Shown piece after piece: positions 6,520-16,432 of a stretch of DNA of 64,000 nt; position 1 is the first letter of the stretch; each line of letters starts with the position of its first letter. Source of the stretch: Pelagibacteraceae bacterium AG-439-F23 (GTDB taxonomy: Bacteria; Pseudomonadota; Alphaproteobacteria; Pelagibacterales; Pelagibacteraceae); assembly GCA_003212415.1 (NCBI GenBank), contig QCPT01000002.1:1-64000 (forward strand), written 5' to 3'. Under the pieces are notes generated by a model. The model did no database searches. It saw nothing but the letters and a program-made list of their open reading frames with translations, and was not told where the DNA came from. The translations under genes were made by a program, and so were the position numbers.

Positions 6520-6623
6520 GTATAAAAGGTTTATAAATTATCAATAAAATAACAATATTATAGATTTCTGTTTAATAGTAAAAATTTCAATTAAAATTAA
6601 CTTAAATTAAACAAATTATAAAT

Positions 6624-6632
6624 TGTGGATAT
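6624..6632 (-). promoter_or_regulatory. DnaA box (one mismatch)
   Basis: The plus strand reads TGTGGATAT, which is ATATCCACA on the minus strand against the DnaA consensus TTATCCACA. It sits directly at the left edge of the most AT-rich part of the putative oriC. Confidence 0.6.
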
Positions 6633-6707
6633 TATTAATTTATTTATTAATAACTAATATTAATCCAAATTATTATTGAAAAACAATGATTCTAGGTGGT
6701 TTTGTTG

Positions 6708-6722
6708 TTAATAATAAGTTAA
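6708..6722. promoter_or_regulatory. CtrA-like site TTAA-N7-TTAA in oriC
   Basis: TTAATAATAAGTTAA fits the full CtrA motif TTAA-N7-TTAA, known from Caulobacter oriC. It lies between the two DnaA boxes. In a genome this AT-rich the motif will also arise by chance, so the location is the main argument. Confidence 0.35.
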
Positions 6723-6749
6723 TAACCTGTGGTAATTGAATAATTTACG

Positions 6750-6758
6750 TTATTCACA
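6750..6758 (+). promoter_or_regulatory. DnaA box (perfect TTATTCACA)
   Basis: TTATTCACA matches the TTATNCACA DnaA consensus exactly. It lies 45 bp upstream of the hemE start codon, so DnaA bound here could also affect hemE transcription (inference). Confidence 0.7.
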
Positions 6759-6802
6759 ATTCATAATACTAATATAACCAAATATTATTTATCTATTATT
6801 AT

Positions 6803-7804
6803 ATGACTCCTATAAAGAACTGTATTTTAAATAAAGATACAACTAAAAATCCTATATGGTTAATGAGACAGGCGGGTCGGTATTTGCCCGAATTTAGGGA
6901 AATTAGAAAAAGCAACCAAGATTTTATTAAACTGTGCTTAAATGAAAATTTATCTTCTGAAATTACCTTACAGCCAATTAAAAGATTTGGCTTTGATGCT
7001 GCTATAATATTTTCTGATATTTTAATGCTTCCTTATGCCATTAATCAAGAAGTTAAATTTGAGAAAGGTTTTGGTCCTAAATTAGGTGATTTAAACATAG
7101 ATAAAATTAAACAAACAAATGAAGTAAATTTTACAAATAAACTCAACCCTGTTTATAAAGCCATCTCACTAACTTCAAAAAATCATTTATTACAAAATAG
7201 AGATTTAATAGGATTTGTTGGTGCTCCCTGGACAATTCTTGTTTATATGTTGAATAAAATGTCACCTAAAAAAGGATTACCTAAAAAATTTTTTAACGAT
7301 ACTTTATTAATAAATAATCTTTTAGATATTATAGAAACATTTCTTAAACTTCATATTAAAAATCAAATTACAGCTGGTGCTAATGTTATACAAATTTTTG
7401 ATAGCTGGGCTGGTTTATTGGAAAATAAAATTCCAGATTATATTTATAAACCAACATTGAACATTGTAGAATATGTAAAAAAATTAGGAGTACCAGTAAT
7501 ATGCTTTCCAAGAGGAATAAAAGATTATAAAAAATTTTGCGAAATAGTTAAACCCGATGCAATAAATATAGATTATGAGGTAGATCCAATAAAAATAATT
7601 AAAGAAATTAAAATACCCGTTCAAGGAGGATTAGATCCAAAAGTTTTATTAACCAGCAAAGAAAATCTTAGAAAAGAAGTAGAAAAATACTTAACAACAT
7701 TTAAAGATCATCCATATATATTTAATTTAGGACATGGAATTCTACCTGAAACAAAAATAGATTTAGTAAAAGAATTAATTGATATAGTAAGAAATTTTAA
7801 ATGA
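6803..7804 (+). CDS. hemE: Uroporphyrinogen decarboxylase
   Basis: Decarboxylates uroporphyrinogen III to coproporphyrinogen III in haem synthesis. The active-site signature PIWLMRQAGRYLPEFRE is at about residues 17-33, the catalytic Asp region is FGFDAAIIFSDILMLPYAI, and the C-terminal substrate region is IFNLGHGILPET. Length 333 aa is normal. First gene right of oriC; its stop overlaps the hemH start (ATGA), so the hem genes form one coupled unit. Confidence 0.97.
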   Translation: MTPIKNCILNKDTTKNPIWLMRQAGRYLPEFREIRKSNQDFIKLCLNENLSSEITLQPIKRFGFDAAIIFSDILMLPYAINQEVKFEKGFGPKLGDLNIDKIKQTNEVNFTNKLNPVYKAISLTSKNHLLQNRDLIGFVGAPWTILVYMLNKMSPKKGLPKKFFNDTLLINNLLDIIETFLKLHIKNQITAGANVIQIFDSWAGLLENKIPDYIYKPTLNIVEYVKKLGVPVICFPRGIKDYKKFCEIVKPDAINIDYEVDPIKIIKEIKIPVQGGLDPKVLLTSKENLRKEVEKYLTTFKDHPYIFNLGHGILPETKIDLVKELIDIVRNFK

Positions 7805-8835
7805 AAATTGCAGTAATATTATTTAATCTTGGGGGTCCTGATAAATTAGATAATGTTGAGCCTTTTTTGTTTAATCTATTTAATGATCCAGCAATAATAA
7901 ATTTACCTTCATTTGTAAGGTATCCACTTGCAAAATTAATTTCAAAAAAAAGAGCCCCTATTGCAAAAAATATATATAAAGAAATTGGAGGATCTTCACC
8001 TATTTTAAAATTAACGCAAGATCAGGCAAACAGTTTAGAAAAATCTCTTAACAACAATCAAAAAGGCTTTAATTACAAGGTTTTTATTACCATGAGGTGT
8101 TGGCACCCAAGAGCTTCTGAAACAGTAAGGATGGTTAAAGATTTTAATCCATCAGAGATAGTTTTGCTTCCTTTATATCCTCAATACTCAGCAGCAACTT
8201 CAGGTTCATCTATCTTGGAATGGAAAGAAATTGCAAAAAAAAATAATCTTAATACAAATACAAGTACTATTTGTTGTTATCCGGAAGATGATAAATTTAT
8301 AAAAGCACACATAGATTTAATATGTAAAAAAATAGAAGGAATAAATAATTTCAAATTAATTTTTTCAGCTCATGGTTTACCAGAAAAAAATATTAGAAGT
8401 GGAGACCCATATCAATGGCAGGTAGAACAAGGTGTAAAAAAAATTATGGAAGGAATTAATGATGAAAGTATAGATTATGTTTTAAGTTATCAAAGCAGAG
8501 TTGGACCTTTGAAATGGATAGGGCCGTCAACAGAAGATGTAATTATAGAAAATTCAAAAAAAGGAAAACATTTAGTTATAGTTCCAATAGCATTTGTTTC
8601 TGAACATTCTGAAACATTGGTAGAATTAGATATAGAGTATGAGAAATTAGCAAGAAAAAATGGATGTAAAAATTATACCAGAATTGAAGCTTTGGGAGTT
8701 AATGAAGCTTTTATCCAAAGTTTGTCAGATTTAATTTTTAATATAGATAATTACAAATTTAAAAATAATTTATACCCACCTAAAAACAGATGTCCGTCTA
8801 GTTTTACAAAATGTCCTTGCCAATTAAATGTATAA
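7801..8835 (+). CDS. hemH: Ferrochelatase
   Basis: Inserts ferrous iron into protoporphyrin IX. The signature around the catalytic His is FSAHGLPEKNIRSGDPYQW, and the conserved Glu region is VPIAFVSEHSETLVELD. The start VILFNLGGPDKLDNVEPFL is typical. Length 344 aa. The C-terminus is cysteine-rich (RCPSSFTKCPCQL), reminiscent of [2Fe-2S] ferrochelatases, though spacing cannot prove a cluster. Overlaps hemE by four bases and the next gene by eight. Confidence 0.97.
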   Translation: MKIAVILFNLGGPDKLDNVEPFLFNLFNDPAIINLPSFVRYPLAKLISKKRAPIAKNIYKEIGGSSPILKLTQDQANSLEKSLNNNQKGFNYKVFITMRCWHPRASETVRMVKDFNPSEIVLLPLYPQYSAATSGSSILEWKEIAKKNNLNTNTSTICCYPEDDKFIKAHIDLICKKIEGINNFKLIFSAHGLPEKNIRSGDPYQWQVEQGVKKIMEGINDESIDYVLSYQSRVGPLKWIGPSTEDVIIENSKKGKHLVIVPIAFVSEHSETLVELDIEYEKLARKNGCKNYTRIEALGVNEAFIQSLSDLIFNIDNYKFKNNLYPPKNRCPSSFTKCPCQLNV

Positions 8836-9358
8836 AAGATTAATTATATATTCAACTACCGATGGCCAGACAAAGCTAATATGTGAAAGAATTAAAAATT
8901 TGTCTAAATTTAATAATGAAACAAAATTGCTTGAAATAGACAAAGCCACAAAAGAAGACATTCAACCTTATGAAGTTATAATTATAGGAGCAAGTATTCG
9001 ATATGGTAAACACAATCCTTCCGTTTTGAATTTTGTTAATAAAAATATTGAAAATTTGAATAAAAAAAAAAGTGTTTTCTTTTCAGTGAATGTAGTTGCT
9101 AGAAAAACAGAGAAAAATTTACCAGAAACAAATCCATACATCATTAAATTTTTAAAATTAGCAAAATGGAATCCATATAAAAAAGCTGTTTTCGCAGGAA
9201 AAATTGATTATCCAAAATATAGTTTTTTAGACAGGCAAATTATTAGATTAATAATGTTTATTACTAAGGGTCCAACAGATACTTCAAAATCTTATGAATT
9301 TACCGATTGGTCAAAAGTAGATGATTTTACTAGAGAAATTGATCAAATTTCAGCATAA
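8828..9358 (+). CDS. hemG: HemG-type protoporphyrinogen oxidase (flavodoxin-like)
   Basis: Flavodoxin-like protein of 176 aa. The FMN-binding loop IIYSTTDGQTKLICERI at residues 6-22 has the DGQT form typical of HemG rather than of electron-carrier flavodoxins; IIIGASIRYGKHNPSVLNFV and FSVNVVARKTEKNLPETNPY are further family segments. HemG oxidises protoporphyrinogen IX to protoporphyrin IX with quinone as acceptor, the step just before HemH, whose gene overlaps by eight bases. Many alphaproteobacteria carry the unrelated membrane protein HemJ at this place, so this looks like a functional replacement. Confidence 0.85.
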   Translation: MYKRLIIYSTTDGQTKLICERIKNLSKFNNETKLLEIDKATKEDIQPYEVIIIGASIRYGKHNPSVLNFVNKNIENLNKKKSVFFSVNVVARKTEKNLPETNPYIIKFLKLAKWNPYKKAVFAGKIDYPKYSFLDRQIIRLIMFITKGPTDTSKSYEFTDWSKVDDFTREIDQISA

Positions 9359-9446
9359 TTTACGTTAAATTATTAGTTTTCTAGGGGTTGAAATTTATAG
9401 TTCAGTATATATATTAAAATCATCTAACAAAGAAAAACCCCCAAAC
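9359..9446 (+). promoter_or_regulatory. rho leader: no Shine-Dalgarno, C-rich tract pairing with an upstream G-tract
   Basis: The 88 bases between hemG and rho hold GGGGTT (9384-9389) and a complementary AACCCC (9436-9441) ending five bases before the rho ATG. Where a Shine-Dalgarno would sit, the sequence is AAACCCCCAAAC. Pairing would form a loop of about 46 bases and bury the start region; unpaired, the C-tract resembles Rho's preferred RNA ligand. Autoregulation of rho is known in other bacteria; the mechanism here is inference. Confidence 0.35.
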
Positions 9447-10718
9447 ATGAATATTCAGGAACTAAAAGAAAAAAGCTCAGAAAAGTTAATTGCAGAAGCA
9501 GAGAAATTAGGCATTGAAAATGCGAGCACATTGAGAAGGCAAGAAATCTACTTTGCAATTTTAAAAAAATTAGCAGAAAAAGGTGAAGAAATTACAGGCG
9601 GAGGAGTTTTGCAGCTCCTTCAAGATGGATTTGGCTTTTTAAGAGCAATGGAATCAAACTACTTGCCAGGTGCAGATGATATTTATGTTAGTCCAAGCCA
9701 GATTAGAAGGTTTGGTTTAAGAACAGGCGATAGTGTTGAGGGTCCAATAAGATCACCAAAAGAAGGAGAAAGATATTTTGCTTTACTGCAAGTAAGTAAA
9801 ATTAATTTTGAAGAACCTGACAAATTTAAACATAAAATTGCATTTGATAATTTAACCCCGCTCTATCCAAATAAACAATTTGTAATGGAAGTTGAAACAA
9901 ATAAAATTGAAAAAAAACCTGATTTAACTCCAAGACTAATTGATCTAGTCAGCCCAATAGGAAAAGGGCAAAGGTCATTAATTATTTCACCACCAAAAGC
10001 AGGTAAAACAATGATTTTGCAAAGTATTGCAAACTCAATATCGGCAAATCATCCAGAGTGTTATCTAATGGTTTTATTGATCGACGAAAGACCTGAAGAA
10101 GTAACTGATATGCAAAGAACAGTTAAAGGTGAAGTTATTAGCTCTACTTTTGATGAACCTGCACAAAGACACGTAGCTGTCGCTGAAATGGTAATCGAAA
10201 AAGCAAAAAGATTAACCGAACATAAAAAAGATGTTGTAATTTTATTAGACTCAATAACAAGACTGGGAAGAGCATATAATGCAGTAGTACCAAGTTCTGG
10301 TAAAGTTTTAACTGGAGGTGTAGATGCCAACGCTCTTCAAAGACCAAAAAGATTTTTTGGTGCCGCAAGAAATATTGAAGAAGGAGGGTCTCTAACTATA
10401 ATAGCTACAGCTTTAATTGATACTGGGAGTAGAATGGATGAGGTTATTTTTGAAGAATTTAAAGGAACTGGTAATAGCGAAACAATATTAGATAGAAAAA
10501 TATCTGAAAAAAGAATTTATCCTGCAATTGATATAACTAAATCGGGCACAAGAAGAGAAGAGTTATTATTTGATAAAAATGATCTTCAAAAAATGAACGT
10601 TTTAAGAAGAATTATTGCACCAATGGGATCTATGGATGCAATTGAATTTATTAATTCAAAATTAAAAAGCACCAAAAGTAATGCTGAATTCTTTAATTCA
10701 ATGAATAAACCAGGTTAA
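9447..10718 (+). CDS. rho: Transcription termination factor Rho
   Basis: Hexameric RNA-dependent ATPase that ends transcription. The N-terminal helical domain starts with [19 protein letters not shown], the cold-shock RNA-binding domain spans about residues 52-118 (DGFGFLRA is its RNP motif), Walker A is SPPKAGKTM, Walker B is [11 protein letters not shown], and the Q and R loops follow ([11 protein letters not shown]). Length 423 aa is standard for Alphaproteobacteria. The start is fixed by the family N-terminus, although no Shine-Dalgarno precedes it. Confidence 0.98.
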
Positions 10719-10726
10719 TATTTACT

Positions 10727-11584
10727 TTATAAATAACCCAATTCCTTCATTTCATTTTTAAATTTAGAAGCAATTTCATCAGCAATTTTTTTATCTAGAA
10801 GTTTTGTCCAATCATTTTTTGGCCCAAGGTTAAAGAAATTTTTTTTTCCTCCTTTTTTATTTTCCGCACTTTCTACAAAACCATAATCGTCTTCCATTTT
10901 TTTTAATTTTAAAAATGAGCTAGATTCAATTGCATTATTAATTTGTTCTTCAGTAAACTTAGTTTTTAAAATTTTCTCCACAAAAAAACTAATTTTAAAA
11001 AATTCTTCTTTGGGATTTTTAATAAGATTTTCGTATTTAATAAGCAAAAAATTTTTTTTCATACTTTTCCACGATCTATAGTGCAATTGCCAAGATCCAA
11101 TAATTTGAGGTAATTGATGATTTTTTTCCCCCATTGTTTTTTCTTTCTCTTGGTCAGACAAAGTTATAATTTGGTTTTCATTAAATAAAAATTCTTTAGA
11201 TTTATTATAATCTAAACTAAAATGATGTTTAAGTGACGTAATAACATTCCTTGGATCTCTTATTATGTATATTGAAGCAAGCGTATTAGTATAATCAGTA
11301 AAAAAATTGTCTTGGTGTCCTACTAACATATTGTGAGTTTTAAAAAATCTAACTTTTTTGTCAGAGTTAATTTTGGTTTGTGTTTTTTTCCAGTTCTTAG
11401 CAACTTCATTTAAATTTAAATAATCTGATATTATATCTTTATATTGAGATTTAGAGGGGTATTGAGAAATAGCCTTTAAATGATTTAAATTTATATTTTT
11501 TTTATTTCCCAATATCAAAGATAATATAAAAAATCTTACCCATGTATTTCCGCTTTTCGGATAAGATGCTAGCCATACAATCAT
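10727..11584 (-). CDS. Sulfotransferase domain protein
   Basis: Protein of 285 aa with the PAPS-dependent sulfotransferase fold. The 5'-phosphosulfate loop is LASYPKSGNTWVRFFIL (residues 5-21), and the 3'-phosphate-binding segment is IYIIRDPRNVITSLKHH at about 108-124. A conserved His follows at the end of that helix. The acceptor substrate is unknown; candidates are a surface glycan, lipid or small metabolite. It sits on the opposite strand between rho and mnmE, interrupting an otherwise plus-strand block, eight bases from the rho stop, so it may be a later insertion into the conserved order. Confidence 0.85.
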   Translation of the reverse strand: MIVWLASYPKSGNTWVRFFILSLILGNKKNINLNHLKAISQYPSKSQYKDIISDYLNLNEVAKNWKKTQTKINSDKKVRFFKTHNMLVGHQDNFFTDYTNTLASIYIIRDPRNVITSLKHHFSLDYNKSKEFLFNENQIITLSDQEKEKTMGEKNHQLPQIIGSWQLHYRSWKSMKKNFLLIKYENLIKNPKEEFFKISFFVEKILKTKFTEEQINNAIESSSFLKLKKMEDDYGFVESAENKKGGKKNFFNLGPKNDWTKLLDKKIADEIASKFKNEMKELGYL

Positions 11585-11628
11585 AAAAAAAATATATAAT
11601 AAATTTATATAGCAGATATATTTATTTT

Positions 11629-14908: not shown

Positions 14909-15639
14909 TTGATTCTAATTTTATAAAAAATACTGATATTAATATCTCAAATGTTTCACGTGAAACATTAAAAGAGCTAGATGACTATGGTAAGTCCATA
15001 ATTTCAAAAAATAAAAACATAAACTTAATAAGTTCAAGCACTGAAAAATTAATAAATACAAGACATATATTAGATAGTGCACAAACTATTGATTTTATTG
15101 ATAATATCAAATTAAAGACATGTACAGACCTAGGATCAGGTGCTGGTCTACCTGGTATAGTTTTAGCTATATTAATGAAACACAAAAACCCCCAATTTAA
15201 GGTGATTCTTTACGAAAAGAGCTATCACAAGAGCAAATTCTTAACTGATATGTCAAAAAAATTTAATTTGAACACAGAAGTCTATCAAAAAAATATTTTT
15301 GAAGAAAAAAATTTAAGTACAGATGTAATTATTTGTCGTGCTTTTAAACCTTTGCCAATTATTTTTGAAATTGCTCAGAAAAATTTTAAAAGTTTTAAAT
15401 ACATAATTTTATTTTTAGGAAAAAGTAGAAAAAAAATTTTGAATGAAGCACTTAAGAACTGGAAATTTGATTATGAAGAAAAAAAAAGTTTAACAAATGA
15501 TGAGTCGATAGTTATTAAGATTTCTAATTTGAAAAAAAAAATGGATAAAAAAATTATTTCAATCATAAATCAAAAAGGTGGAGTAGTCGAGTCAACAACT
15601 AAGACCAATCTCGCTGCTTTGAGAAAAAAAAATGGATAA
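14905..15639 (+). CDS. rsmG: 16S rRNA (guanine-527-N7) methyltransferase RsmG, with a ParA-derived C-terminal tail
   Basis: SAM-dependent methyltransferase acting on G527 of 16S rRNA. The SAM loop is [18 protein letters not shown] (about residues 72-89), and [14 protein letters not shown] near the N-terminus is typical. TTG start, overlapping mnmG by four bases. The normal protein should end at about residue 212; here it runs on for 32 residues starting [14 protein letters not shown], an in-frame decayed copy of the ParA N-terminus. One base fewer in the A-tract before 15541 explains the read-through (see direct repeat). Core enzyme appears intact; the tail is probably an accident and may be neutral. 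Confidence 0.93.
14952..14967. promoter_or_regulatory. parS site inside rsmG (perfect)
   Basis: TGTTTCACGTGAAACA is the exact ParB-binding consensus. It is read in the rsmG frame as part of NVSRETL, an N-terminal RsmG segment that accommodates parS in other bacteria as well. Confidence 0.93.
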
Positions 15640-15709
15640 AAAAATTATTTCAATCATAAATCAAAAAGGTGGAGTAGGAAAGACAACAACTGTGATCAAT
15701 CTTGCTGCT
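15541..15709 (+). repeat. Imperfect 91-bp-period duplication of the parA 5' end
   Basis: The segment starting at 15541 (ATGGATAAAAAAATT) recurs at 15632, the parA start. The first 46 bases are identical; the next 32 differ at 8 places by direct alignment; both copies end in CTGCT. The lead-in also recurs (TTTGAAAAAA... and TTTGAGAAAA...). The upstream copy encodes KGGVVESTT where ParA has KGGVGKTTT, so its ATP-binding Lys and Gly are lost. It is a fossil or a sequencing/assembly product, not a second ParA. Confidence 0.93.
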
Positions 15710-16432
15710 GGATTGTCTATGAAAGGAAAAAAAATTTTAGTAATTGACTTAGATCCACAAGGAAATGCTACTACCGGTCTAGGATTGTCTAACAGTGCAA
15801 GCTCGGACACTACAATTTATAGTGTGCTTAATGGAAATAAGAAAATTTCAGAAGTGATCCAGAATACAAGCTTTGAAAATTTAAATTTGATATCTTCGAA
15901 TGTAAATTTGTCCGGTCTAGAGGTTGAAACTGCTGGAGACAGTCGTAGAGCCTTTAAATTAAAGGACGAATTGACCTATATTTTAAATGATTCTAGAGCT
16001 TCATATGATTATATTCTAATAGATTGTCCTCCATCTTTGAGCTTACTGACAATTATGGCATTGGTAGCTTCAGATGCTCTAGTGGTACCACTGCAAACGG
16101 AATTTTTTGCTCTAGAAGGACTTACTCAACTCATGAAGACAATTGAAAGGATAAAAAATAATCTTAATCCAGAACTATCAATCAGAGGGATCCTTTTGAC
16201 AATGTATGATAGACGAAACAAGCTTTCAGGAGAAGTAGAGAATGAAGCAAGAAATTATTTTAAAGAAAAAGTCTACCAATCAGTGGTTCCAAGAAATGTT
16301 AGACTATCCGAAGCCCCTTCCCATGGAGTTCCAGTATTAATTTATGATAAAGGTTGTCCTGGAAGCAAATCATATTTTAGTTTTACAGAAGAATTTTTAA
16401 ATCAAGATAAACCAGTGGAGAGCGCAGCATGA
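15632..16432 (+). CDS. parA: Chromosome partitioning ATPase ParA (Soj)
   Basis: Dimeric ATPase that moves ParB-parS complexes. The deviant Walker A is KGGVGKTT at residues 11-18, Walker A' is VIDLDPQGNATTGLG and Walker B is YDYILIDCPPSL. Length 266 aa. The start at 15632 is the copy with an intact P-loop; the ATG 91 bases upstream belongs to the decayed duplicate and reads in another frame. It overlaps the rsmG stop by eight bases and parB by four (ATGA). With parB and two parS sites it forms a complete origin-segregation set. Confidence 0.97.
   Translation: MDKKIISIINQKGGVGKTTTVINLAAGLSMKGKKILVIDLDPQGNATTGLGLSNSASSDTTIYSVLNGNKKISEVIQNTSFENLNLISSNVNLSGLEVETAGDSRRAFKLKDELTYILNDSRASYDYILIDCPPSLSLLTIMALVASDALVVPLQTEFFALEGLTQLMKTIERIKNNLNPELSIRGILLTMYDRRNKLSGEVENEARNYFKEKVYQSVVPRNVRLSEAPSHGVPVLIYDKGCPGSKSYFSFTEEFLNQDKPVESAA

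Follow-up and report, generated by a model that had tools for sequence, protein, structure and literature searches.

HemG and HemJ as near-exclusive alternatives at one haem locus of the Pelagibacterales, with signs of recurrent exchange alongside ferrochelatase

The HemG protoporphyrinogen oxidases of Escherichia coli and Leishmania major are the closest described relatives of the enzyme considered here. E. coli HemG deprived of its insertion loop is inactive, and in the L. major enzyme, which uses ubiquinones in vitro, residues Y134, Y137 and R142 have been tested by mutation and Y137 is essential (PMC4114063). In laboratory work E. coli HemG can also stand in for the yeast enzyme, to which it is unrelated (PMC5536947). 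HemJ has been read as oxygen-dependent (PMC4500134), but the literature has not settled on its electron acceptor (PMC7242693; PMC4500134). Cyanobacteria make mosaic use of HemJ, HemY and HemG, from which lateral transfer has been inferred, and Prochlorococcus marinus MIT9215 and MIT9515 are HemG-only (PMC4500134, citing Kobayashi 2014). Within SAR11, exchange by homologous recombination has been proposed for the LPS cassette HVR2 (PMC2217521). The HemG enzyme, its use in place of HemJ in Prochlorococcus and mosaic oxidase use are thus already known. Our literature search, whose reach excluded most subscription papers, returned no report of HemG in SAR11. What appears to be new is that, within a genus, a single locus has undergone the exchange repeatedly, in step with the type of ferrochelatase, and that an intermediate is available.

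The window, a stretch of 64,000 nucleotides from Pelagibacteraceae bacterium AG-439-F23 (contig QCPT01000002.1, positions 1 to 64,000), carries a haem gene cluster with the following features.

6803-7804, plus strand: hemE, uroporphyrinogen decarboxylase (TIGR01464, 309 bits); conserved left flank, at whose 3' end the exchanged block begins
7801-8835, plus strand: hemH, type A ferrochelatase (TIGR00109, 292 bits)
7801-9390, plus strand: putative exchangeable hemH-oxidase block, from the hemE end to just before the rho promoter, placed by the breakpoints between genomes G219 and G048; the window's similarity to relatives with type B ferrochelatase and HemJ resumes at 9388
8828-9358, plus strand: hemG, flavodoxin-fold protoporphyrinogen IX oxidase/dehydrogenase (NF008316, PF12724, AlphaFold model)
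8861-8872, plus strand: DGQT loop, HemG residues 12-15 (D12-G13-Q14-T15), from the alignment of the order's HemG
9197-9274, plus strand: insertion loop specific to HemG, residues 124-149 (124-149 in E. coli too), containing Y128, Y131 and R136, from the alignment with E. coli HemG
9388-9415, plus strand: promoter-like site of rho (TTGAAA, 16 nt, TATATT), a consensus match only (10/12 positions), at which the conserved right flank starts
9447-10718, plus strand: rho, transcription terminator (TIGR00767, 690 bits); conserved right flank

The hemG open reading frame has bounds of exactly 8828-9358 and encodes 176 amino acids; its start overlaps the end of hemH, and 88 bp separate it from rho. The product scores 202.8 bits against the NCBIfam equivalog NF008316 (menaquinone-dependent protoporphyrinogen IX dehydrogenase, HemG; cut-off 142) and 155.8 bits against Pfam Flavodoxin_5 (PF12724; cut-off 27), while its scores against ordinary flavodoxin family models lie far under their cut-offs. 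It is 41% identical to E. coli HemG, and its AlphaFold model (pLDDT 94.1) finds flavodoxins as top PDB matches in Foldseek (E ~1e-6, TM 0.4-0.6). Across 32 HemG of the order the D, G and T of the DGQT loop are invariant and position 14 is Q or H. The insertion loop holds a Tyr-X2-Tyr-X4-Arg arrangement, Y128, Y131 and R136, with the same spacing as L. major Y134, Y137 and R142 (PMC4114063). Both tyrosines are invariant in the order's 32 HemG proteins; residue 136 is Arg in the window and E. coli enzymes and Lys in the order's other 31. Sequence confirms the gene as a member of the HemG family, and its product should act as a protoporphyrinogen oxidase. The original prediction of a flavodoxin-fold HemG with the DGQT loop between hemH and rho thus stands, its neighbours also being confirmed by family models.

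If HemG replaces HemJ here, a hemJ elsewhere would speak against it. The window's genome (1.08 Mb in 41 contigs, SAR11-like) has no match to the HemJ family PF03653 in an assembly that is 76% complete, and a hemJ in the missing part is formally possible. No true hemY was found either: the genome's matches to TIGR00562 are N-terminal fragments that stay below threshold, none above 33 bits, the best scoring 32.8 bits over 45 positions against a cut-off of 97.85. Because incompleteness leaves a gap, we turned to relatives to judge the absence of hemJ, and their inspected loci show HemJ nowhere else.

Our survey comprised 348 genomes of the order, namely the window's own and relatives drawn at a completeness limit of 80%. 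HemG occurs in 34 of them and HemJ in 291. The two occur together in a single genome (G156), compared with 28.4 expected (hypergeometric P ~1e-29, a rough guide since the genomes are related), and HemJ is absent from 33 of the 34 HemG genomes. Neither gene is present in 24 genomes. The six of these that are at least 90% complete lack a true rho, with just weak ATPase matches, so the locus itself is missing from their assemblies. Assembly gaps explain the neither-gene genomes at least in part, and a third, unfamiliar oxidase is not needed to account for them. Separately, one genome without hemJ has hemG in two frames (G160:C5:97352-97871), from a sequencing error or a broken gene.

In the 89 loci that we read, 32 with HemG and 57 with HemJ only, the oxidase gene without exception follows hemH immediately and precedes rho. 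Gene content and order strongly support HemG and HemJ as near-exclusive alternatives at one fixed hemE-hemH-X-rho locus of the order. The non-orthologous replacement in situ that had been predicted for the window is strongly supported, as HemJ holds the hemH-rho place in 57 of 57 HemJ-only loci and none is found in the window's 76% complete genome. The pattern also exceeds that claim, with the 348-genome survey and the rpoB tree described below pointing to many exchanges across the order, often together with hemH. As for traces of a former hemJ, the 88-bp gap behind the window's hemG is too short for a remnant, and none is visible. In three genomes (L045, L046, L056) the 514-531 bp behind hemG are not a hemJ relic either; this gap before rho holds an antisense open reading frame of ~135 aa, membrane-protein-like and without a Pfam match.

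The ferrochelatase gene upstream varies too. Three clearly distinct types occur at the locus, A, B (~330 aa) and C (~370 aa), and representatives of all types tested score over the ferrochelatase equivalog cut-off. Type A is the window's type, its members being ~50-71% identical to the window's. Types and oxidases combine as follows.

Type B with HemJ: 41 loci of 89
Type C with HemG: 21 loci of 89
Type A with HemJ: 16 loci of 89
Type B with HemG: 9 loci of 89
Type C with both HemG and HemJ: 1 locus of 89
Type A with HemG: 1 locus of 89, namely the window; none of the other loci read combines the two

Type C is always accompanied by HemG (22/22). The window's own ferrochelatase has paired cysteines at 158-159 and a C-terminal C331-X6-C338-X-C340. 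The C-terminal [2Fe-2S] motif of ferrochelatases is CX(1,11)CX(1,11)C (PMC8529089), which C331, C338 and C340 fit, and a cluster is predicted on that basis. In those f2-family type A ferrochelatases that were read (L006, for example) the last cysteine of the motif is absent, and the cluster may have been lost.

The oxidase label switches at least 20 times on a rho tree (88 loci). As rho itself is linked to the locus, a second tree was made from the unlinked rpoB (51 genomes), and on it the label switches at least 13 times; both counts are approximate, as the trees are partly resolved and the genomes were chosen for having one gene. The rpoB tree places several switches locally: G219 (C+HemG) lies beside G324 and G048 (B+HemJ), G021 (B+HemJ) beside G078, G105 and G156, and G023 (A+HemJ) beside G094 (C+HemG). 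Comparison of G219 (hemG) with G048 (hemJ) locates the edges of one such exchange. The left flank is 92.8% identical through the end of hemE and the right flank 94.9% identical from 35 bp before rho onward, while hemH and the oxidase gene do not align at all; the whole block is swapped, ferrochelatase included. The right edge falls in the rho leader, the site of the window's promoter-like element.

Switching of the oxidase at this locus thus appears to be recurrent, even between close strains, and the exchange edges are consistent with homologous recombination between conserved flanks. Crossovers would fall in hemE to the left and in the rho leader to the right, and recombination would swap the stretch in between, as a rule hemH along with the oxidase gene. 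The block may have an outside origin, perhaps in marine Gammaproteobacteria. Taken as a whole, it is very probable that HemG is an alternative to HemJ at a fixed locus, swapped by homologous recombination. A further step, possible but doubtful, is to see the hemH-oxidase block as a set of long-lived non-homologous alleles (ferrochelatase A, B or C with HemG or HemJ) circulated by recombination and by selection through factors such as oxygen, the supply of iron or natural inhibitors of the oxidase. If true, an essential haem step would be effectively polymorphic in natural SAR11 populations.

In the one genome with both oxidases, G156, a type C hemH is followed by hemG, hemJ and rho in that order. 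Upstream this locus resembles that of G078, of the HemG type, and from hemJ to rho it is like G021, of the HemJ type. HemJ of G156 differs from that of G021 by 15 substitutions, six of which alter positions that do not vary among the other 57 HemJ, including the N-terminal His and, in the NEPT motif, Pro-Thr. Judging by these six changed positions, the G156 HemJ looks like a leftover that is losing function after the arrival of hemG. Overall dN/dS (0.12 against G021) was tried as a sign of relaxed selection on this hemJ and is not decisive.

The source of HemG is harder to place. Among sampled genomes of the class outside the order HemG is rare, with four over cut-off; one of the four, G525, has the gene order hemE-hemH-hemG-rho. 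As its best relatives a scan of public genomes gives SAR11 single cells and SAR86 cells, together with Shewanella and other Proteobacteria. The HemG tree lacks resolution in its deep branches, neither supporting a single SAR11 clade nor rejecting one (AU p 0.48), and SAR11 sequences are intermixed with those of SAR86 and with other marine ones, so we refrain from naming a donor; that it belonged to the marine Gammaproteobacteria is a guess. One SAR86-labelled single cell, AG-447-O04 (L154), carries hemE-hemH-hemF-hemG as a cluster. The hemH in it shares 60% identity with the type B gene of the SAR11 genome G030, and the cell is possibly either a donor type or mislabelled. A phage-borne HemG was also considered and dropped, the viral-contig scan having given no relative.

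The tandem in G156, together with the same kind of HemG locus outside the order (G525), invites an explanation that needs no repeated import: an ancestral hemG-hemJ pair from which each lineage lost one member. We consider this improbable, given that both genes are kept in just 1 of 348 genomes and that the 13 or more switches on the rpoB tree would require the pair to persist in many lineages. Simple loss also does not yield the sharp-edged replacement of a whole block, nor would it have hemH switch along with the oxidase in close pairs, as it does (type C with hemG, 22/22).

A different objection concerns the protein itself, which has the flavodoxin fold and flavodoxins as its best PDB matches, and which might serve another role than protoporphyrinogen oxidation. 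There is very little chance of this, for the protein passes the HemG equivalog cut-off while staying far under those of flavodoxin models, carries the insertion loop with Y128 and Y131, and belongs to a family almost completely exclusive with HemJ at the same place; no other oxidase was found in the window's genome. Finally, single-cell genomes are the source of many named HemG loci, and chimeric assemblies or contaminated bins could in principle create such a pattern. It is scarcely conceivable that they did so across 34 independent HemG genomes, several of them 94-99% complete with ~1% contamination, in which SAR11 genes flank the loci on contigs as long as hundreds of kb, gene order is kept and reading frames are intact.

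The original prediction went on to say that the swap alters the electron acceptor logic of haem synthesis; this is not established, given that HemJ's own acceptor is unsettled. The steps before the oxidase are represented by hemE at the locus and, in each of 15 genomes tested, by hemF, the oxygen-dependent coproporphyrinogen oxidase. None of the 15 has menA and all have a ubiA-family match (over cut-off in 13), which makes ubiquinone the likely acceptor. HemG with FMN would oxidise protoporphyrinogen IX to protoporphyrin IX and its electrons would pass to the quinone pool, most likely to ubiquinone.

Several observations concern the surroundings of the locus. An origin-proximal position of the haem cluster is plausible, with parA- and parB-like genes downstream. 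The Caulobacter origin adjoins hemE, and by likeness to that neighbourhood the AT-rich gap at 6520-6803, between a kinase/pyrophosphorylase gene and hemE, is a possible origin site. The gap has two DnaA-box-like 9-mers, at 6624 and 6750; DnaA-box counts across the window are no higher than chance, and we do not take them as proof of an origin near hemE. Further on, the rsmG-parA junction (15535-15715) holds an imperfect tandem duplication of ~85-92 bp, with a broken parA start appended to the end of the rsmG reading frame. Relatives L242 and L244 seem to be single-copy here, and the duplication could be real or an artefact of assembly or amplification. The rho-mnmE gap (10719-11628) is a variable site, occupied in the window by a reverse-strand sulfotransferase gene (10727-11584) and in relatives by zero, one or two sulfotransferase genes, or by other DNA.

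Displacement by an unrelated enzyme is usually inferred long afterwards, and here it may be caught in progress. How essential enzymes get displaced becomes directly testable in one of the ocean's most abundant bacterial groups. There is a practical side as well, in that metabolic models built from closed SAR11 genomes would miss HemG strains, all single-contig genomes listed in the survey carrying HemJ.

Set against known systems, the locus is like HemG-only Prochlorococcus in that HemG is the sole oxidase within a mostly HemJ group, with lateral transfer inferred there too; the text of PMC4500134 on cyanobacteria describes no repeated exchange at one locus, ferrochelatase co-exchange or tandem intermediate. 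The window enzyme has its flavodoxin fold, DGQT loop and insertion loop with two tyrosines and an arginine in common with E. coli HemG (PgdH1) and L. major HemG, and it would probably share their quinone-linked oxidation of protoporphyrinogen IX. It differs from the E. coli case in lying inside a hemE-hemH-rho cluster, in belonging to an order whose other HemG carry Lys where E. coli and the window have Arg136, and in its probable acceptor, menaquinone being unlikely given SAR11 genomes that tested without menA. HemJ (PgdH2, UPF0093) of related SAR11 is assigned the same reaction step and occupies the same hemH-rho place, yet it belongs to an unrelated family of membrane proteins. The manner of exchange recalls the SAR11 LPS cassette HVR2, likewise a variable cassette with conserved flanks as recombination sites, but whereas HVR2 spans 48 kb of mainly cell-surface genes (PMC2217521), the hemH-oxidase block consists of two genes of the haem pathway.
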